A stretch of DNA of 41,165 nucleotides from an uncultured cyanobacterium (GTDB lineage: Bacteria > Cyanobacteriota > Cyanobacteriia > CACIAM-69d), in NCBI GenBank assembly GCA_937883785.1, contig CALGDE010000149.1:1-41165 (forward strand), written 5' to 3'. The translations under genes were made by a program, and so were the position numbers. Under the pieces are notes generated by a model. That model searched no databases. It worked only from the letters and a program-made list of their open reading frames with translations, and was not told the origin of the DNA. The number at the start of each line of letters is the position of its first letter. Position 1 is the stretch's first letter. Positions 4,468 through 14,389 of the stretch are shown one piece after another.

Positions 4468-5034
4468 ATGACTTGGGATTCTGCGTCGCGACCTCCAATG
4501 TCCTCACCGCCGGACGACACCTTGCCTGGGAGCTCTTCTTCCGATGATTTACACGTTTCCTGGGATGACTATCATCAAAAAATCGAGCAGCTTGCCTTAA
4601 ATATTCACCATTCCCAGTGGACCTTTGATGCAATCGTTTGCATTGCTCGCGGCGGCTTAAGGGTTGGGGATATTCTGTCCAGAATCCACGATAAACCCCT
4701 TGCTATTCTCTCAGTGCGCTCCTACGGCGGAGAGGTGGGGCGCGATCGCCTAGGGGTGACCCTCTCTCAAACCCTGTCCACCACGGTGCCTCGTCTGGGT
4801 CCCAACGTGCTTCTAGTGGATGATTTGGCAGATTCTGGAAGTACCCTTCAGCGATCGCTACAGTGGCTACACCAACACCATGGGCAAGACGTGGAAATAA
4901 TTAAAACGGCCACCCTATGGTGTAAATCCACTTCAGCGGTGACCCCCGACTACTACATTGACCAGGTGGACGGCGATCGCTGGATTTGCCAACCCTTTGA
5001 GCAATATGAACGCTACCGATTACCCTCTCAATAG
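4468..5034 (+). CDS. Phosphoribosyltransferase, purine (Gpt/Hpt-like) type
   Basis: A type I phosphoribosyltransferase of 188 residues, likely transferring the phosphoribosyl group of PRPP to a purine base for salvage. The PRPP-binding loop is VLLVDDLADSGST (114-126) with the paired Asp118-Asp119, and an upstream VCIARGGLRVGD block is the family's flexible-loop start. The C-terminal WICQPFEQYER segment resembles short Gpt/xanthine-type enzymes, but the base specificity cannot be read from sequence. The frame also opens from a TTG at 4411; I prefer ATG 4468 because the extra 19 residues are low-complexity, and ATG 4498 is also possible. Neighbouring genes give no pathway clue. Confidence 0.8.
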   Translation: MTWDSASRPPMSSPPDDTLPGSSSSDDLHVSWDDYHQKIEQLALNIHHSQWTFDAIVCIARGGLRVGDILSRIHDKPLAILSVRSYGGEVGRDRLGVTLSQTLSTTVPRLGPNVLLVDDLADSGSTLQRSLQWLHQHHGQDVEIIKTATLWCKSTSAVTPDYYIDQVDGDRWICQPFEQYERYRLPSQ

Positions 5035-5504
5035 CTCTTCTTTACTTTCTTAATCTGTCCAAGAATTTTGTGGGGCATGTTAGCCTAGTAAATATACGGA
5101 AAGCACTCGAATTCTCACTCCTCTCATGGTTTGCTGTTTCAAGGTTGCAAAGCTTTGGTTAATAAGCCGGGCTTTAACGCTGCTGTCTCTTAAATTTCTG
5201 AAAGCGGCAGAGACGCCTGTGAATAGTTGATCAATGTTGCATATTTTCCTGTTTGAATGTCTGAGAGTTGAAAAGTGTTAGGCATTGTGCCAGCTTTTGC
5301 TTAAGGATAATGGTCTCCCGCCTGCCTAGGGGGAAATTCCAGCGCTGCTTATGCGCTTTCCAAGGGCAACTTTGTTGAAGGACAAAGTTCTCGAAAGCGT
5401 TTGGGTCGTTTGAGCTAATAGTTAGGTTTGCTTTCGCAAGATTTCCCTAAGCCTTCTTCCCGGGTTTTAGGCGAGCATAAAGGCTTTGTTTGTTGAGGTT
5501 TATC
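5035..5504 (+). other. Long non-coding leader region upstream of the MshEN-like gene
   Basis: 470 bases with no supported gene. The left part (5035-5340) shows only a weak stem, GTCTCT pairing with AGAGAC near 5180-5215. The right part (5341-5436) is strongly structured and is listed separately. The final bases carry GAGG at 5494-5497, the ribosome binding site of the next gene. Because everything structured lies on the sense strand just before a start codon, I read it as a 5' untranslated region, though an independent small RNA is equally possible. Confidence 0.5.
5341..5436 (+). promoter_or_regulatory. Structured leader RNA with competing stems
   Basis: Several perfect pairings overlap. 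AGCGC (5341-5345) pairs with GCGCT (5353-5357). CGCTTTC (5354-5360) pairs with GAAAGCG (5393-5399), enclosing AACTTTGT (5368-5375) paired with ACAAAGTT (5382-5389) around a six-base loop. CGAAAGC (5392-5398) can instead pair with GCTTTCG (5430-5436). The first and second stems exclude each other, as do the second and third. This is the architecture expected of a switching leader, but it matches no riboswitch class I recognise, and the c-di-GMP class I consensus is not present. Confidence 0.5.
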
Positions 5505-6189: not shown

Positions 6190-7110
6190 ATGGATGAGTC
6201 TGCCGCATCTAAGGAATCCGAGTCGGAAACTGATGATATTGGCTTTGGGCGATCGCTTTCCCAGACAGCATCAGGGCGTCGAAGCCGTATCTCCACAGAG
6301 GTGGCTGAGGCAGTGCGTGACGGCGGCTATCCAGCGACTAAGAAACCCCGAAAGGGAGGGCTGGGTTGGCTCTTAGGGGCGCTGGCATTGGTATTTGCTG
6401 GAATTGCTGCAATGGCTCTGTGGGCGTGGAGTACAGGACAGCTAGAGGATTTGTTGGCAGGCGACTTATTTGCTCCCAAAACGCCTGACGTGGAGGAAGT
6501 GTCGGATCCCAACGCGTCGCCGACGATTAATTCCGATGACTTGTTGGGCCATTTGCCCTACGAGGAAGCGCCGGAAGACGATTTAGTGGCGATTTCCGCT
6601 GATGGGCTATTTTTGCTGCGTTCAGCGGCGGCCGAAAGTTTCCGCGAACTAGACCAAGCGGCGCGACGGGATGGTATTTCTTTGGCAATGATTTCGGCAT
6701 TTCGATCCATTGCTCAACAGCAGCAGATTTTCTTTGATATCAAGGCTAACCGTCGCCAAACTCCCGACGAGCGGGCAGAGGTAAGTGCTCCTCCCGGCTA
6801 TAGCGAACACCATACGGGCTACGCCATTGATTTGGGCGACGCGGCAGTGCCGTCGGTGAATTTGAGCGAGTCTTTTGAGGACACTCGGGCGTTTGAGTGG
6901 CTGGATCGCAACGCCGTTCAGTTTAATTTTGAGCTGTCCTTTCCTCGGGACAATGTGCAAGGTATTGCCTACGAGCCCTGGCATTGGCGCTTTGTGGGCG
7001 ATCGCCACAGCTTAGAAACGTTCTACAAGGCTCGATATCAAGTGAGACCTCGCCCAACGTCAGCGACATCGGAGGGAGACGCTGATGGGTCAGACGAGGC
7101 AGAGGACTGA
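6190..7110 (+). CDS. Membrane-anchored D-alanyl-D-alanine carboxypeptidase, VanY/M15B family
   Basis: This enzyme removes the terminal D-Ala from peptidoglycan stem peptides in the periplasm. The 306-residue protein begins with a charged cytoplasmic stretch (1-55), a single membrane helix (about 58-80) and a linker. The zinc peptidase domain (about 120-285) has the full set of signatures: SAFRS with Arg172, SEHHTGYAIDLGD with zinc ligands His207 and Asp214, and EPWHW with catalytic Glu262 and zinc ligand His265. The C-terminus is acidic and Ser/Thr-rich. A sense-strand neighbour (MshEN-like) ends 85 bases upstream, and the next gene is convergent, 28 bases away. The family call is secure; the exact substrate (tetra- or pentapeptide) is not. 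Confidence 0.9.
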   Translation: MDESAASKESESETDDIGFGRSLSQTASGRRSRISTEVAEAVRDGGYPATKKPRKGGLGWLLGALALVFAGIAAMALWAWSTGQLEDLLAGDLFAPKTPDVEEVSDPNASPTINSDDLLGHLPYEEAPEDDLVAISADGLFLLRSAAAESFRELDQAARRDGISLAMISAFRSIAQQQQIFFDIKANRRQTPDERAEVSAPPGYSEHHTGYAIDLGDAAVPSVNLSESFEDTRAFEWLDRNAVQFNFELSFPRDNVQGIAYEPWHWRFVGDRHSLETFYKARYQVRPRPTSATSEGDADGSDEAED

Positions 7111-7138
7111 ATCAATTTAGTCATTAAGGACGTCAGCC

Positions 7139-7747
7139 TTAGCGACATCCATCCACGGACACCACGTACACGTTGCCCACGGTGCCTACATTGCCCACAA
7201 GGGTATTGACCTGGAAGGGTTGCAAGACGCGATTGTTGCTGCGACGACGGGGAAATGCCTGCATTTGCACCAATTCGTTGGCTTCGGTAACCACCTTTTG
7301 ATCGTAAAATCGGTCGTTGGAATCATCGCCGTACTTTAAAAAGGCTTTGACGTTGTAAGTGCCGGAATCTTTAAAGAACAGATTGACGCGGAAACTGGTG
7401 AAGTTAATTTCCGTAGGCACCACAAAGTCCGTGTTCCAGTTACTGCGAGACACAAGCAAGCTGGGCAAAGACACGCGCTTGATCACCTCTGGATCATTGC
7501 CACCGACGGGTTGAAGGGGCAGGGGACGGCGACAGGCTATCTGGGGGGGGAATCGCTCAGGTACCTGAGCTACGGGGGCAATGGTAGTCATATTGACCGT
7601 TGCAGGGAACAGGCTGGTGGGGGCTGCAAGACCCAGTAGAGGAGCGATCGCCAAGCTGCCTGTGGCTAAGCTGCCCGTGAGTAAGGAGAGCGATCGCTTT
7701 TGAAATAAATTGCAGGATATGGGCAATGGATTAAACGGTATTGTCAT
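7139..7747 (-). CDS. Secreted protein of unknown function
   Basis: A 202-residue protein not recognised beyond its general form. A polar start with Arg/Lys is followed by a long hydrophobic, Ala/Leu/Gly-rich segment (about 20-43), which reads as a signal peptide or anchor, so the mature protein is probably periplasmic or outer-surface. The mature part is rich in beta-forming residues, with two Cys (near CRRPLPL and near the end, DGCR) that could form a disulfide. It is convergent with the carboxypeptidase gene and divergent from the TPR-like gene, 64 bases away. Confidence 0.65.
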   Translation of the reverse strand: MTIPFNPLPISCNLFQKRSLSLLTGSLATGSLAIAPLLGLAAPTSLFPATVNMTTIAPVAQVPERFPPQIACRRPLPLQPVGGNDPEVIKRVSLPSLLVSRSNWNTDFVVPTEINFTSFRVNLFFKDSGTYNVKAFLKYGDDSNDRFYDQKVVTEANELVQMQAFPRRRSNNRVLQPFQVNTLVGNVGTVGNVYVVSVDGCR

Positions 7748-7811
7748 GACGGGAAATGGCTATGAAGTTTAGGATGACCAAAGGTTAACTTAATTATCCC
7801 AAAGCACTACT

Positions 7812-8459
7812 GTGACTGATTCCCCCGTGACCGATTCAGGCTCCGACTCCAAGGCAGACCCGGCTAATTTGCCTGATTCAACGGATAGGGCTCCCAATGA
7901 TAATCAGCTGCCCCAAACGGAGCTGGAGAAGGAACTAGCGGAAGATCGGAAATCCCAGGCACGGGGGCTGTTGCAACGGGGAAAAGCTGCCTACGAATCG
8001 GGTCGATATCGCGATGCCATTAATACTTTAGAAACGGCGGCGGGAGTGATGCAGAACCCCATCTCTCCATTGGGGGGGGAGATTTCAGTTTGGTTAGTAA
8101 CAGCCTATGAAGCGTTGGGGTTACGGGACAGTGCTTTGGGACTGTGTCGAAAACTCTGTACCCATCCCGATTTTACGGTGCGAAAACAGGCGCGGCGACT
8201 GTTGGAAATTTTGGAGGCGCCCCAGCTTAATCGTCCCAAGGAATGGATGACAGAAATTCCCGATCTCTCTTCCCTAGAAGAAGATGAGCGCTCTCAGGTT
8301 CCGATTAGCCGCCCCCGCAAAAACACGAAAAGCTCAGTAACGGAGCCTCCCGCTGAGCCGCCATTACCCCCTGAAGAGCGTCGTTATAACGATGGGCTGT
8401 TTTGGGCGATCGCGTTAGGGGTCTTGACGGTTGGTTTGGCGGCGTGGGCGGTCATTTAA
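7812..8459 (+). CDS. TPR-like protein with C-terminal membrane anchor
   Basis: The 215-residue product has an acidic, disordered N-terminus (1-45), a helical repeat region with TPR character (about 48-135: ARGLLQRGKAAYESGRYRDAINTLETA, a degenerate second repeat, then HPDFTVRKQARRLLEI), a Pro-rich linker, and a final hydrophobic helix ending at the C-terminus (WAIALGVLTVGLAAWAVI). That layout suggests a tail-anchored scaffold facing the cytoplasm. The start is GTG at 7812; no internal ATG would keep the N-terminus. Function and partners are unknown. Confidence 0.7.
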   Translation: MTDSPVTDSGSDSKADPANLPDSTDRAPNDNQLPQTELEKELAEDRKSQARGLLQRGKAAYESGRYRDAINTLETAAGVMQNPISPLGGEISVWLVTAYEALGLRDSALGLCRKLCTHPDFTVRKQARRLLEILEAPQLNRPKEWMTEIPDLSSLEEDERSQVPISRPRKNTKSSVTEPPAEPPLPPEERRYNDGLFWAIALGVLTVGLAAWAVI

Positions 8460-8506
8460 TATGCAATATTTCTGACGATTCAAATGTGGAGCGAGGCACG
8501 ATTGCG

Positions 8507-8977
8507 ATGGATGAAAATCGAGAACAACTTCGAATTCGCACCGCTCAACGAGAGGATATTGAGACTTTGTTTGAAATTCGAACAGGGGTCGTCGAGAATT
8601 ACCAATCTCGCGAAGAAATAGCTGAACTAGGCATTACTCCAGATTCCGTTGCCACCATGTTAGAAACGGATTGCTGTGCATGGATTGCACAGCTAGAAGA
8701 GCGGGTGATCGGTTTTTCCATTGCTAGTGCCACGGAACGGACGATATTCGGAATTTTTGTGCGACCTGATTTTGAGGGACGAGGGGCTGGGCGAGCTTTG
8801 ATGGAAGTGACTGAGAGGTGGTTTTGGGATCAAGGCATGGATGAAATTTGGCTGTTAACTGGCAATGACCCAACCCTCAGAGCCTATGGTTTTCATCTGC
8901 ATTTAGGCTGGGTGCCGGTGGGCGTTGAGCAGGATGGAGAGTTGCCAGGGGAAATGAAATTTATCAAGAAGCGCTAG
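8507..8977 (+). CDS. GNAT family N-acetyltransferase
   Basis: A 156-residue acetyltransferase using acetyl-CoA. The pyrophosphate-binding loop is in FVRPDFEGRGAGRALMEV (R/Q-x-x-G-x-G/A motif), preceded by the beta strand IFGIFV and followed by LRAYGFHLHLGWVPVG, the usual motif B region. The substrate is not predictable. The frame is open back to 8402, but those codons overlap the end of the previous gene and look random; ATG 8507, preceded by a GCGAGG-like site, gives the family length. It is followed 12 bases later by a second, unrelated GNAT gene, so the two are likely cotranscribed. Confidence 0.85.
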   Translation: MDENREQLRIRTAQREDIETLFEIRTGVVENYQSREEIAELGITPDSVATMLETDCCAWIAQLEERVIGFSIASATERTIFGIFVRPDFEGRGAGRALMEVTERWFWDQGMDEIWLLTGNDPTLRAYGFHLHLGWVPVGVEQDGELPGEMKFIKKR

Positions 8978-8989
8978 GGGAGGTTTATA

Positions 8990-9556
8990 TTGCTTAGCCA
9001 GCTTAAAATTCGATGCGCTTTATCTTCTGATATGGGGGCGATCGCCCAGGTGATAACTGCCGCGTTCCCCAAGGAAGGAGCGATTATTGTTGACTTGGTA
9101 AACGACTTAATTAAAGATCCCACAGCTCAGCCTGTTGTGTCCTTAGTGGCGACCCTTCAAGGCGACACTGGTGAAGAAATTGTGGGGTATATTTTGTTCT
9201 CTAATGCTTGGTTAGAGGGGGGCGATCGCACCGAATCCATCGTGATGCTCGCCCCTCTGTGCGTCCATCCCACCCATCAAAAACAAGGCATCGGCGGACA
9301 GCTCATTGAAGATGCAATCCAACGGTTAGCGGCATCGGAAGTAGACTTAGCGTTTCTCCTGGGCTACCCCAGCTACTATCCCCGCCATGGCTTTTCCCCT
9401 GCTGGTAAACAAGGTTTTATCCCCACTTATCCCGTGCCTGAAAAGGATGCAGATGCGTGGATGGTGCGGGAACTGAAACCTGGGGCGGCGGAATCTCTCT
9501 CCGGCAAAGTCATTTGCGCCGACGCCCTCAATGAACCGCAGCATTGGCAAGAGTAG
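8990..9556 (+). CDS. GNAT family N-acetyltransferase, YhbS-like (COG3153)
   Basis: The 188-residue product begins with LKIRCALSSDMGAIAQVI, a typical GNAT N-terminus, and carries the acetyl-CoA loop CVHPTHQKQGIGGQLIEDAI. The following GYPSYYPRHGFSPA block is characteristic of the YhbS subgroup. The acceptor substrate is unknown. The start is a TTG at 8990, supported by GGGGAGG (8977-8983) six to seven bases upstream, which overlaps the stop of the previous GNAT gene. The tight spacing suggests one operon. Confidence 0.85.
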   Translation: MLSQLKIRCALSSDMGAIAQVITAAFPKEGAIIVDLVNDLIKDPTAQPVVSLVATLQGDTGEEIVGYILFSNAWLEGGDRTESIVMLAPLCVHPTHQKQGIGGQLIEDAIQRLAASEVDLAFLLGYPSYYPRHGFSPAGKQGFIPTYPVPEKDADAWMVRELKPGAAESLSGKVICADALNEPQHWQE

Positions 9557-10478: not shown

Positions 10479-10725
10479 ATGTTTAGTACCCAGCCCCGTA
10501 CTTATACCGTTGATGAATACCGCGATCGCTAACAGACTGCGGAGCAACGCCATGAGTATCGCAACGGAGAAATTATTCCAATAACCGGCGGGTCGCGATC
10601 GCACAATAGAATTGCGGCTGTTGGATCTGAATACCGGTCTTGAGAAGGTTTTGAAACTTGAGGCGATCGCTCTGGAATTGCAACTACGGCCCATCTCCAT
10701 CTATCGCGGCATTGCTTTCGGTTGA
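10479..10725 (+). pseudogene. Decayed Uma2-family (DUF820) endonuclease-like gene
   Basis: From ATG 10479 the frame reads MFSTQPRTYTVDEYRDR, stop (TAA 10530-10532), QTAEQRHEYRNGEIIPITGG, then SHNRIA. This is the N-terminus of cyanobacterial Uma2/DUF820 proteins, usually TYTVDEYLALEETAEERHEY and GEIIPMTGG...HN. Soon after, the similarity stops. A second frame then gives KLEAIALELQLRPISIYRGIAFG ending at TGA 10723-10725, which fits the C-terminal end of the same family. About 100 or more middle codons, including the PD-(D/E)XK core, are missing. The gene is therefore broken by at least one stop, one frameshift and a large internal deletion. Confidence 0.7.
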
Positions 10726-10823
10726 TACTCAATTGGATTGATGGCGCTATGGTTTGGGCTTTGAGGCTTTGGCTAACCTCGTACAATAATTGCTGAGCTA
10801 TTTATCCACTTCGCGCTGACTCC

Positions 10824-12005
10824 ATGGATTGGACCCGCCAGACTAAAAAGCAATTCCGTGAGGCTTTGACGACGGTTTATCCCAGCTATGACTTGCTGGA
10901 GATGTTTTTGGAGGAGGATTTTGGTGAGCGGTTGCCCAGCATAACTTCAAAGACGGGGCTGGAAGTGGTGGCTTTTGCTCTGCTGAAATGGGCGGACGCA
11001 AAGGGGCGGTTGGATGAGCTGTATCGGGCATTTTGTGAGGAAAACCCGGATAATCCGGTGACTCAAGAGCTGGTGCAGTCTTTTGCACAGGTGTCTTCAC
11101 CGAAGCCCAAAGCGACGCCTAAAGATACGCCGAAGATTCGACCGCTGTTTGAGTTTGAGACGGTGCGGGTGGATGAGCAGGGAAAAGTTATTGAGCGTCA
11201 GCGGAAAACGGCGGAATATTGGGATTTGGATTTAGGTGAGGGGATTACTTTGACCTTGGTGAAGGTGCCAGCAGGTCAGTTTTGGATGGGGTCGCCTTCC
11301 GATGAATTAGAGCGGGACGCTCTTAAAAAAATTATTGATGACTATGAGGAGGGACCCAGGCATTTAGTGCAGATTCCAGAGTTTTGGATGGGAAAGTATC
11401 CAGTGACCCAAATGCAGTGGCGTCGGGTTGCGGCTTTGCCAAAAGTGCAAGTGGATTTAGAGGTTGACCCGTCGGAGTTTAAGGGTGCTCAGCGTCCTGT
11501 GGAGCAAATTAGCTGGGATGAGGCGCGAGAATTTTGCCAACGGGTGTCTCGCTTTACTGGGGAATCTGTTGGCTTACCTAGTGAATCCCGGTGGGAGTAT
11601 GCCTGTCGGGCTGGCTCCGATACTGCGTTTGCTTTTGGTCCGACGCTAAACGCTGAAATCGCTAATTACGACGCTAACTACACCTATGACAAAGGACCGA
11701 AAGGTAAGTATCGAGAGGAAACGACACCTGTGGGGCAGTTTCCAGGAAATAGCTGGGGTTTATTCGATATGCACGGTAATGTTTTGGAATGGTGCGACGA
11801 TGTGTGGTTTTCCAATTATGATGGTGCGCCTACCGATGGTTCGGCTCGAAAGTCAAGTCAAGTAGATCGTCGTCTGCTGCGCGGCGGCTCCTGGAACTAC
11901 GATCCTAGGTATTGCCGGTCTGCCTGTCGCAACTACTTTTCGCGCGGGTTCCGCGTCAACTACATCGGTTTTCGTGTGTGTTGTGTGGCTCCGAGGGCTT
12001 TTTAG
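10824..12005 (+). CDS. EAD1 / FGE-sulfatase (SUMF1) fusion, candidate DGR target protein
   Basis: The 393-residue protein joins two domains. Residues 1-90 (FREALTTVYPSYDLLEMFL ... GLEVVAFALLKWADAKGRLDELYRAF) match effector-associated domain 1, a small helical adaptor used in bacterial conflict and signalling proteins to recruit a partner bearing the same domain. Residues about 131-393 form an FGE-sulfatase domain with C-type-lectin fold: PAGQFWMGSP, PVEQISWDEAREFC, SRWEYACRAG, MHGNVLEWC and a terminal RGGSWN...IGFRV. The catalytic Cys pair of true formylglycine-generating enzymes is not evident, so this is probably a binding domain. Its last 41 residues look adenine-mutagenised (see the separate entry). 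No reverse transcriptase or template repeat is in the window. ATG 10824 fits the domain start. Confidence 0.85.
   Translation: MDWTRQTKKQFREALTTVYPSYDLLEMFLEEDFGERLPSITSKTGLEVVAFALLKWADAKGRLDELYRAFCEENPDNPVTQELVQSFAQVSSPKPKATPKDTPKIRPLFEFETVRVDEQGKVIERQRKTAEYWDLDLGEGITLTLVKVPAGQFWMGSPSDELERDALKKIIDDYEEGPRHLVQIPEFWMGKYPVTQMQWRRVAALPKVQVDLEVDPSEFKGAQRPVEQISWDEAREFCQRVSRFTGESVGLPSESRWEYACRAGSDTAFAFGPTLNAEIANYDANYTYDKGPKGKYREETTPVGQFPGNSWGLFDMHGNVLEWCDDVWFSNYDGAPTDGSARKSSQVDRRLLRGGSWNYDPRYCRSACRNYFSRGFRVNYIGFRVCCVAPRAF
11880..12005 (+). other. Candidate DGR variable region (VR)
   Basis: Codons 353-393 encode RGGSWNYDPRYCRSACRN and on to IGFRVCC. In DGR targets of this family the template encodes Asn (AAC/AAT) at a fixed set of positions. 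Here nine of these positions hold Tyr359, Asp360, Tyr363, Cys368, Tyr371, Phe372, Phe376, Val378 and Tyr380. Their codons are TAC, GAT, TAT, TGT, TAC, TTT, TTC, GTC and TAC: every one ends in C or T, as expected if only the two adenines of AAY were replaced. Asn is retained at 358, 370 and 379. The fixed frame residues (RGGSW, PR, CRSA, IGFR) are intact. The template itself was not found in the window. Confidence 0.7.
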
Positions 12006-12059: not shown

Positions 12060-12085
12060 TTCGCGCTGTGCGCGAAAAATTTTTC
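12060..12085 (+). terminator. Hairpin downstream of the candidate VR
   Basis: TTCGCGC (12060-12066) and GCGCGAA (12070-12076) form a perfect 7-bp stem with a three-base loop, followed by AAATTTTTC. It can act as an intrinsic terminator. It also lies about 55 bases after the VR stop codon, where DGR targets often carry a hairpin needed for target recognition. It follows a pyrimidine-rich stretch with repeated CCCTTT units. Confidence 0.6.
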
Positions 12086-12229
12086 AGCACTTCAATTTCA
12101 GAAAGTTGCAAGAATCAGGTACGCCCCTATTGGCTTCGAGTCTTAGGGCTGGGTGTTCCGAAACTCCTTTAAACTGATTAGGTTGTTTTTGAATGCCTGG
12201 CGCGACTGTTTCCGCCCATCTCCTAACCC

Positions 12230-14389
12230 ATGCCCGCATTTTTGTTTGAAGTCGGTACCGAAGAACTCCCCGCTAGTTTTGTTGACCAGGCGATCGCCCA
12301 GTGGAAAACCCTGATTCCTGCGAGCCTGAAGGAAGCGGATTTGGCGGTGGAGTCGATTCAGTATTTCGGCACCCCTCGACGGTTGGCGGTGTTGATCGAG
12401 GGTTTACCGGAGCGTCAGGAAGATAAGAACGAAGAAATTAAAGGACCTCCGGCGAAGGCTGCGTTTCGTGATGGCGAGGCGACTAAGGCGGCGATCGGTT
12501 TTGCCAAGAAGTATGGGGCGACGCCGGACGCCTTGGAAATTCGACCGACGGACAAAGGGGAATTTGTCTTCCTAAAGCATTTTGTGGCGGGGCGGACCTC
12601 GGCGGAGTTGTTGCAGGAGTTGGCTCCCCAGTGGGTTCTGGATTTAGAAGGGAAGCGGTTTATGCGCTGGCGCGACGGGGAATTGCGGTTCCCCCGTCCC
12701 ATTCGCTGGTTGGTGGCGCTGCTGGATGACCAGGTGGTGCCGGTTTCTTTGACAGTGCGGGCAGCGGCTGATGGTCAGGAAGAATTGACAGTAACGAGCG
12801 ATTGCCAATCCCAGGGACACCGAGTGTTAAACCCTGAGCCAATTAACTTTGCTTCGGCAACAGAATATATAGAAGGACTTCGCGGCGCATCGGTATTGGT
12901 GTCACCCCAGGAGCGGGAAGACTTAATCGTTAAGCAGATCAAGGCAGCCGAGGCGGAACTGGGCGGCACCATTGAAATTGATGAGGACCTGCTGGCGGAG
13001 GTGCGCGACCTCACGGAATTCCCCACGGCGGTTATCGGAAAGTTTGACGATGAGTTCCTAGAGTTGCCGCCGGAGGTGATCATTACGGTGATGGTGACTC
13101 ACCAGCGCTATTTTGCTGTGGCGGAAAAAGGTAACCCCGCAAAACTGCTGCCAAACTTTATCGCCATTTCCAACGGTGACCCTGCAAAATCGGACATTAT
13201 CGCCGCCGGTAACGGTCGGGTGATTCGCGCCCGTTTGAACGATGGTCAGTTCTTCTACGATGCGGACCTGAAGCAATCCTTGGAAACCTATCTGGCGGAA
13301 CTGGAAAAGGTCACCTTCCAGGACAAGCTAGGGTCTATGGCGAAAAAGGTGGACCGGATGGTGGCGCTGGCGGAATTGCTGTGCGATCGCCTCAACATCA
13401 CCGGCGACAACCAAACCACTGCCCTCCGCGCCGTCAAACTGGCAAAGGCAGACCTGGTCACCCAAATGGTCAAGGAATTTCCCGAACTCCAAGGGATTAT
13501 GGGTGAAAAATACGCCCGTACTGGCGACGAAGGGGAAGCGGTGGCGATCGCCATTGGAGAACACTATTTACCGAAAGGCGCTGGCGATGCCCTGCCCCAA
13601 AGTGAAGCCGGTCGCATTGCCGCATTGAGCGATCGTTTGGATACCCTAACTGCTTTATTCGGTATCGGCATTATCCCCAGCGGCTCCTCCGATCCCTTTG
13701 CCCTGCGTCGCGCCGCCAATGCGATCGTCAATATTCTGTGGGATGCCAACTACAACTTAGATCTAGACGAATTGACCGAGGCGGCGATCGGGGACTCTCC
13801 CGAGAATGGTGACGCTGTGGACCAGGTGAAAAACTTCTTTGGGCAGCGCTTCCAAACCCTGTTGCAGGAAGAGAAAACTATTGACTACGACCTAGTGAAT
13901 AGTGTCCTGGGAGACTTGGAGGGCGATCGCGATAGCCTCCAGCGGGCACTGCAAAATCCCCTCGACACCCTGGTTCGCGCGCAATTCCTACAAACCCTGC
14001 GGGGGGATGGTCGCTTGCAGGAAATCTACGCAACGATCAACCGGGCGGCGAAATTGGCGAAGAAAGGCGACCTCCCTGGCGATGTGCTCGACCCCAGCAC
14101 CTGTGTGGACCCTGCCAAGTTTGAGCAGCCCTCTGAAAATGCGCTGTGCAACTCCCTGCAATCCCTTGCACCGATGGTTCAAGACGCCCGCGCCACCCAG
14201 AACTACGACAAAGTAGTAGAAGCGCTTCAATCCCTCGCTCCGGTGGTGACCGACTTCTTCGACGGTGAAAACAGCGTGATGGTGATGGTTGATGACCCCG
14301 CTATCCAGAAAAACCGTCTGAATTTACTAGGGCTGTTGCGTAACCAAGCCAGTATTCTTGCGGACTTTAGTCTGATTGTGAAAGGGTAG
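12230..14389 (+). CDS. glyS: Glycine--tRNA ligase beta subunit
   Basis: The beta subunit of the alpha2-beta2 bacterial glycyl-tRNA synthetase, which binds tRNA-Gly while the alpha subunit carries the catalytic site. The 719-residue product opens with the family signature PAFLFEVGTEELPASFV and contains FGTPRRLAVLI, EFPTAVIGKFD, VTHQRYFAV and the HD-like region with LVTQMVKEFPELQGIMG, EHYLP and SSDPFALRRAANAIV. The C-terminal anticodon-binding helical part is complete. The start ATG 12230 directly precedes the conserved N-terminus. The alpha subunit gene is not adjacent. Confidence 0.97.
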   Translation: MPAFLFEVGTEELPASFVDQAIAQWKTLIPASLKEADLAVESIQYFGTPRRLAVLIEGLPERQEDKNEEIKGPPAKAAFRDGEATKAAIGFAKKYGATPDALEIRPTDKGEFVFLKHFVAGRTSAELLQELAPQWVLDLEGKRFMRWRDGELRFPRPIRWLVALLDDQVVPVSLTVRAAADGQEELTVTSDCQSQGHRVLNPEPINFASATEYIEGLRGASVLVSPQEREDLIVKQIKAAEAELGGTIEIDEDLLAEVRDLTEFPTAVIGKFDDEFLELPPEVIITVMVTHQRYFAVAEKGNPAKLLPNFIAISNGDPAKSDIIAAGNGRVIRARLNDGQFFYDADLKQSLETYLAELEKVTFQDKLGSMAKKVDRMVALAELLCDRLNITGDNQTTALRAVKLAKADLVTQMVKEFPELQGIMGEKYARTGDEGEAVAIAIGEHYLPKGAGDALPQSEAGRIAALSDRLDTLTALFGIGIIPSGSSDPFALRRAANAIVNILWDANYNLDLDELTEAAIGDSPENGDAVDQVKNFFGQRFQTLLQEEKTIDYDLVNSVLGDLEGDRDSLQRALQNPLDTLVRAQFLQTLRGDGRLQEIYATINRAAKLAKKGDLPGDVLDPSTCVDPAKFEQPSENALCNSLQSLAPMVQDARATQNYDKVVEALQSLAPVVTDFFDGENSVMVMVDDPAIQKNRLNLLGLLRNQASILADFSLIVKG

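Follow-up and report, generated by a model that had tools for sequence, protein, structure and literature searches.

An EAD1–FGE gene in the 41,165-nt stretch of DNA analysed here (hereafter the window) is probably, at odds of roughly 0.6, a stranded "variable-protein homologue" that is now static or nearly so and lacks both the template and the reverse transcriptase (RT) of a diversity-generating retroelement (DGR). Its C-terminal variable surface would have been inherited from a DGR-diversified lectin lineage, the template repeat and RT having since been lost from the genome or never having been there; a genome holding neither would leave that surface static or nearly so. Past DGR diversification of this particular gene appears plausible from sequence but is not proved, as there is no template with which to compare it. 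We regard the gene as a real but ordinary member of the class known from the available text of PMC7517822.

The 393-residue product passed the Pfam membership thresholds for both EAD1 (PF19955; residues 1–87, 64.1 bits against a gathering score of 24.2) and FGE-sulfatase (PF03781; residues 145–385, 168.7 bits against 23.3). The closest solved structures in a sequence search were PvdO (5hha) and Treponema denticola variable protein 1 (2y3c). The latter, which we take to be a DGR target, has an FGE-type lectin domain that aligns with the window protein through the variable repeat (VR; E 5.2e-19), whereas the window protein carries EAD1 and no DGR was found in its genome. Human SUMF1 (PDB 2aii and others) shares the domain family and the GGS...GFR frame. 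The active site of FGE is a cysteine pair, and a cysteine in the YMCHRSYC motif of the human enzyme has a catalytic role. This residue, presumably active-site Cys336, pairs in our alignment with a variable Tyr in the WNYDPRYC motif of the window protein; Tyr there takes the place of the first cysteine of the pair, so formylglycine chemistry is unlikely. The FGE domain of the window protein probably binds rather than catalyses. About 55 bases past the stop codon, a hairpin (TTCGCGC-TGT-GCGCGAA) followed by AAATTTTT forms a terminator-like site at 12060–12084.

Table 1 Features of the EAD1–FGE gene in the window.
Feature	Coordinates	Strand	Basis
393-aa protein with EAD1 adaptor domain and C-terminal FGE-sulfatase / C-type-lectin fold domain	10824..12005	+	Pfam EAD1 E 1.7e-17; FGE-sulfatase E 2.5e-49
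EAD1 (effector-associated domain 1), top of 13 matches in own genome	10824..11084	+	
FGE-sulfatase (C-type-lectin fold) domain	11256..11978	+	One of six FGE matches in own genome; structures closest in sequence are PvdO and T. denticola variable protein 1
VR-like C-terminal region: 33 codons RGGSW...GFRV and 8-codon tail	11880..12002	+	Lines up in frame with template and variable repeats of DGRs in relatives

The VR-like region consists of 41 codons (RGGSWNYDPRYCRSACRNYFSRGFRVNYIGFRVCCVAPRAF), ends in a TAG stop at 12003–12005 and lies at the 3′ end of the gene, within the predicted C-type-lectin fold domain. These codons share the frame of cyanobacterial DGR targets. An earlier note on this DNA had singled out 11880–12005 as a candidate DGR variable region at the end of a lectin-fold protein; the coordinates, the 41 codons, the fixed frame and the nine residues that it lists (Y, D, Y, C, Y, F, F, V and Y) are all as it described. 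Its reading is borne out in that this C-terminal lectin/FGE domain belongs to the kind rewritten by DGRs in cyanobacteria, with the register and the hypervariable columns where they would be expected. The note had also taken all nine columns to be Asn in templates. Among 14 template-like sequences of relatives, Asn is typical in eight of them, but the column with Cys (number 15 of the VR in zero-based numbering) holds Asn in just 3 of the 14. All nine codons do end in C or T, an observation to which the note had attached considerable weight. Given the residues, however, and with codon frequencies taken from 13 window ORFs, the probability of this outcome is 0.34, because the Val codon alone was free to differ; Tyr, Asp, Cys and Phe codons always end in C or T. 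As an argument for a DGR, the nine C- or T-ending codons therefore carry almost no information. In the full set of template-Asn columns, 12 of 12 window codons end in C or T (NNY), which is compatible with AAY codons mutated at adenines and is also expected from the residues. The claim that the pattern exceeds chance survives for the choice of residues, with F, Y, H, N, D or C filling 11 of the 12 template-Asn columns as against 20% of the positions that precede the final 41 codons of the gene, and not for the third bases. Residue choice and the place of the variation are the informative part of the pattern.

The window is contig C149 of a 4.84-Mb draft genome in 167 contigs with a completeness rating of 99.99%. 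It is of cyanobacterial origin, with its best matches among named genomes in Trichodesmium, Leptolyngbya and Phormidesmis. We searched the whole draft assembly, window included, with three RT queries. The RVT_1 profile gave no first-look RT candidates in the 167 contigs. A DGR-RT protein from the same family, a query that found just its own source among six genomes, likewise gave none. An eight-sequence DGR-RT profile returned no match at E <= 10 among five candidates; this profile recovered the RTs of G004, G031, G134 and G123, all of them contributors to it and so no independent test of its reach, together with an RT fragment in G045. The draft assembly thus yielded no DGR-type RT.

Nor did it yield a template repeat with adenine-confined mismatches. 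Used as a DNA query, the window VR matched itself and the coding sequence of an EAD1–FGE paralogue on contig C88 at 75% identity, with no adenine-biased copy in the draft genome and a next match of 17 bases. A hypothetical template used as query recovered the C88 paralogue at 72%, and all additional matches in the draft genome were of 27 bases or fewer. We rejected a 19-base exact match on contig C150 as a template, since the three frames of its strand hold no RGGSW...GFR frame. Against the 14 template-like sequences, which come from 12 relatives, the window VR showed 8–23 non-adenine mismatches; the best match was in G092, which, like G026 and G061, owes its "template" status to Asn-richness alone. 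These searches bear out the earlier note in finding neither RT nor template within the window, and lend no support to its proposal that the region is being diversified in trans from elsewhere in the genome. The whole-genome search that it had suggested, for an adenine-biased copy beside an RT gene, led to the C88 paralogue only, which differs at third positions in 7 of 21 fixed codons.

The same template test gave clear results in relatives. An RVT_1 search of 145 related genomes, the window's own included, matched 77, among them DGR-type RTs beside FGE genes. Mismatches between template repeat (TR) and VR fell at template adenines in 14 of 14 cases in G004, which belongs to the same family, in 15/15 and 13/13 in two pairs of G031, in 15/15 and 11/11 in two pairs of G123, and in 13/13, 12/13 and 12/14 in G135, G134 and G011, respectively. 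The VRs of eight in-register pairs differed from their own templates at 0–2 non-adenine positions. Two ungapped comparisons fitted adenine-only change badly (10/18 for L172 at the G134 locus and 19/28 for L173 at the G135 locus), and these look out of register through a difference in length, as compared without realignment. The G136 locus gave no TR/VR pair in the same comparison. In G045 (L233 on contig C280 and L205 on contig C88 of that assembly), a VR and a template lie on different contigs, the template adjoins a C-terminal RT fragment and 20 of 20 mismatches are at template adenines, making this VR a clean candidate for a trans target. Recovery of the DGR pairs and of this target indicates that the template test works and that trans targets exist in the group. 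In G062 (L228, contig C239, minus strand), a template-like copy lies 449 bases after a VR, but only 3 of its 7 mismatches fall on A; the two may be a TR/VR pair in decay.

Ordinary divergence of paralogues could also have produced the window sequence: an exposed ligand-binding lectin surface would have varied under drift or diversifying selection, with a DGR never involved. We consider this somewhat unlikely. The near-automatic occurrence of NNY codons at these residues (the P of 0.34 above) suits such divergence, and NNY codons are widespread in the family. Among non-template sequences of cyanobacteria, all twelve template-Asn codons are NNY in 15 of the 31 whose genome has an RVT_1 hit and in 6 of the 21 whose genome has none (Fisher p = 0.25), a sorting in which not all RVT_1 hits are DGR RTs. 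Among non-cyanobacterial sequences the count is 3 of 59, in a set of which 43 of 60 rows before filtering were one conserved family. The counts are confined to 33-residue segments, a limit that removed 12 of the 125 distinct ones, and omit template-like rows with at least 9 Asn of 12, namely 10/41 with an RVT_1 hit, 2/23 without and 1/60 non-cyanobacterial. Two of three paralogues in the window's own genome are also NNY at all twelve. The codon pattern of the window gene is typical of its family. Moreover, this family, an FGE family of Massilia, Duganella, Janthinobacterium and kin (43 sequences) that makes up most of the non-cyanobacterial set, has 7–10 NNY codons of 12 in these columns and yet is conserved between species, and the paralogue on contig C39 carries Gln in a template-Asn column, a residue that adenine-only change of AAY cannot yield.

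What speaks against divergence alone is where the variation falls. It coincides with the template-Asn columns of the relatives' DGRs, one of these DGRs being in the same family, and homologues of the domain are DGR targets. For 13 related-domain pairs, taken from the 55 possible among 11 sequences, the upstream domain is 49–82% identical and only 1–5 of the 12 template-Asn columns agree. The window and C88 proteins follow this pattern, with 3 of 12 template-Asn columns and 118 of 207 upstream residues identical. The two genes disagree in the third base of 7 of 21 fixed and 2 of 12 variable codons, as against 0–2 of 21 and 0 of 12 in seven TR/VR pairs. These synonymous differences in fixed codons fit ordinary divergence, and the 7 of 21 shows that the two genes were not recently rewritten from one template. 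Where their residues are identical, on the other hand, the two genes share the codon at 12 of 17 sites in the VR but at only 43 of 108 upstream (p = 0.033, uncorrected); the test fell below 0.05 for 3 of the 13 pairs, which included the active G031 pair. This excess faintly suggests that the two genes once had a template in common, but it is too slight to build on. We favour a stranded homologue of DGR-diversified proteins over divergence in which a DGR took no part.

It is improbable, in our judgement, that trans diversification of the VR continues, driven by a DGR present in the cell and outside the assembly, whether through a gap, a plasmid or a strain difference. A DGR could have escaped assembly in a draft of 167 contigs, and the G045 locus provides a precedent for a VR and its template on different contigs. 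Remote targets are common in cyanobacteria, numbering 76 in 21 genomes according to the available text of PMC7517822. In G088 (L227, contig C73), a VR at 4819 and a template at 5385 form an intact pair with 13 of 13 mismatches at template adenines, and neither RVT_1 nor the DGR-RT profile found an RT in that assembly; its template is either an orphan or its RT is missing from the assembly. An RT missing from an assembly accordingly does not prove that diversification is over. Against live diversification of the window gene, both RT and template would have to be missing from an assembly rated nearly complete. Eight plasmid records matched the VR query at 70–85% identity, five of the eight at annotated FGE proteins, but the two matches above 80% identity span just 33% and 38% of the query. 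Phage records gave no match, and viral contigs held four distant relatives. A more specific form of this proposal has the EAD1–FGE sensor diversified by a DGR on an element outside the assembly, such as a plasmid, which would amount to borrowed, switchable antigen-sensor diversification of an EAD1/NTPase conflict system; we hold this to be very improbable.

The EAD1–FGE gene sits in a variable stretch of its genome. Upstream lie an EcsC-family gene and a Uma2 remnant, and the neighbour on the other side is presumably a glycyl-tRNA synthetase beta-chain gene. Pfam scans of three other window proteins brought no vWA/MoxR neighbour to light. In G001, the single congener compared, the neighbouring synthetase gene is 93% identical and the flanks align to window positions 7001–9556, 10501–10618 and 12152–12969. 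Between these flanks, G001 carries a Uma2 gene and a hypothetical gene in place of the EAD1–FGE gene, of which it has no orthologue (best match 43% identical, E 3.3e-67). The gene was therefore gained here or lost in G001. The Uma2 remnant, a broken putative restriction endonuclease gene at about 10500–10727, corresponds to an open frame in G001.

The window's genome has 13 EAD1 matches and six FGE matches, two of the latter at contig ends. A further EAD1–FGE gene is seemingly split between the ends of contigs C88 (L014, C88:94-516) and C85 (L015, C85:65-358), with a C-terminus RGGSWKDKARVCRSASRAYQ... that has Lys and Gln in its variable part. Pfam scans of seven other EAD1 proteins without FGE identified NB-ARC in two, AAA_35 in one and WD40 repeats in one; there was also an nSTAND1 match at 27.0 bits, against a cut-off of 27.1, and one AAA_16 match below its cut-off. 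The same genome thus encodes EAD1 proteins that carry NB-ARC and AAA domains. The lectin surface of the window protein may bind a ligand, and EAD1 would then couple this binding to a second EAD1 protein, one belonging to a conflict system centred on an NTPase.

This arrangement resembles the EAD1-linked and FGS-domain conflict systems of cyanobacteria, for which the available text of PMC7159879 (eLife 2020) proposes EAD1 as a coupling adaptor. As there, the FGS (FGE) domain is C-terminal, other domains are N-terminal, and several EAD1 proteins occur per cyanobacterial genome; the window gene differs from the systems in that text in having an EcsC-family gene, a Uma2 remnant and a synthetase gene as neighbours. 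The cyanobacterial variable proteins, remote variable proteins and "VP homologues" in the available text of PMC7517822 (2020) share with it a C-terminal C-type-lectin domain, hypervariable columns at the gene's 3′ end and dispersed paralogues, some with grafted N-terminal domains. That text judges 121 of 219 lectin-domain paralogues to be diversified, describes all3226 of Nostoc PCC 7120 as a paralogue with remnant TR–VR homology and no proximal RT, and suggests that the diversifying parts are lost once a variant is selected. Unlike its remote targets, the window gene has no template found in its draft genome, so it cannot be classed as one by similarity to the genome's own TR or variable protein. 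For DGR targets of Thiohalocapsa, trans activity is the best explanation given in the available text of PMC10907252.

The window gene adds one more case to a published class, the cyanobacterial lectin paralogues that have a DGR-like look and no machinery at hand. It also indicates that a C or T at the end of the codon is by itself a poor marker of DGR action, since the residues common at such sites dictate it. Diversification in trans, if true, would bear on how bacteria keep the sensors of their conflict systems variable.
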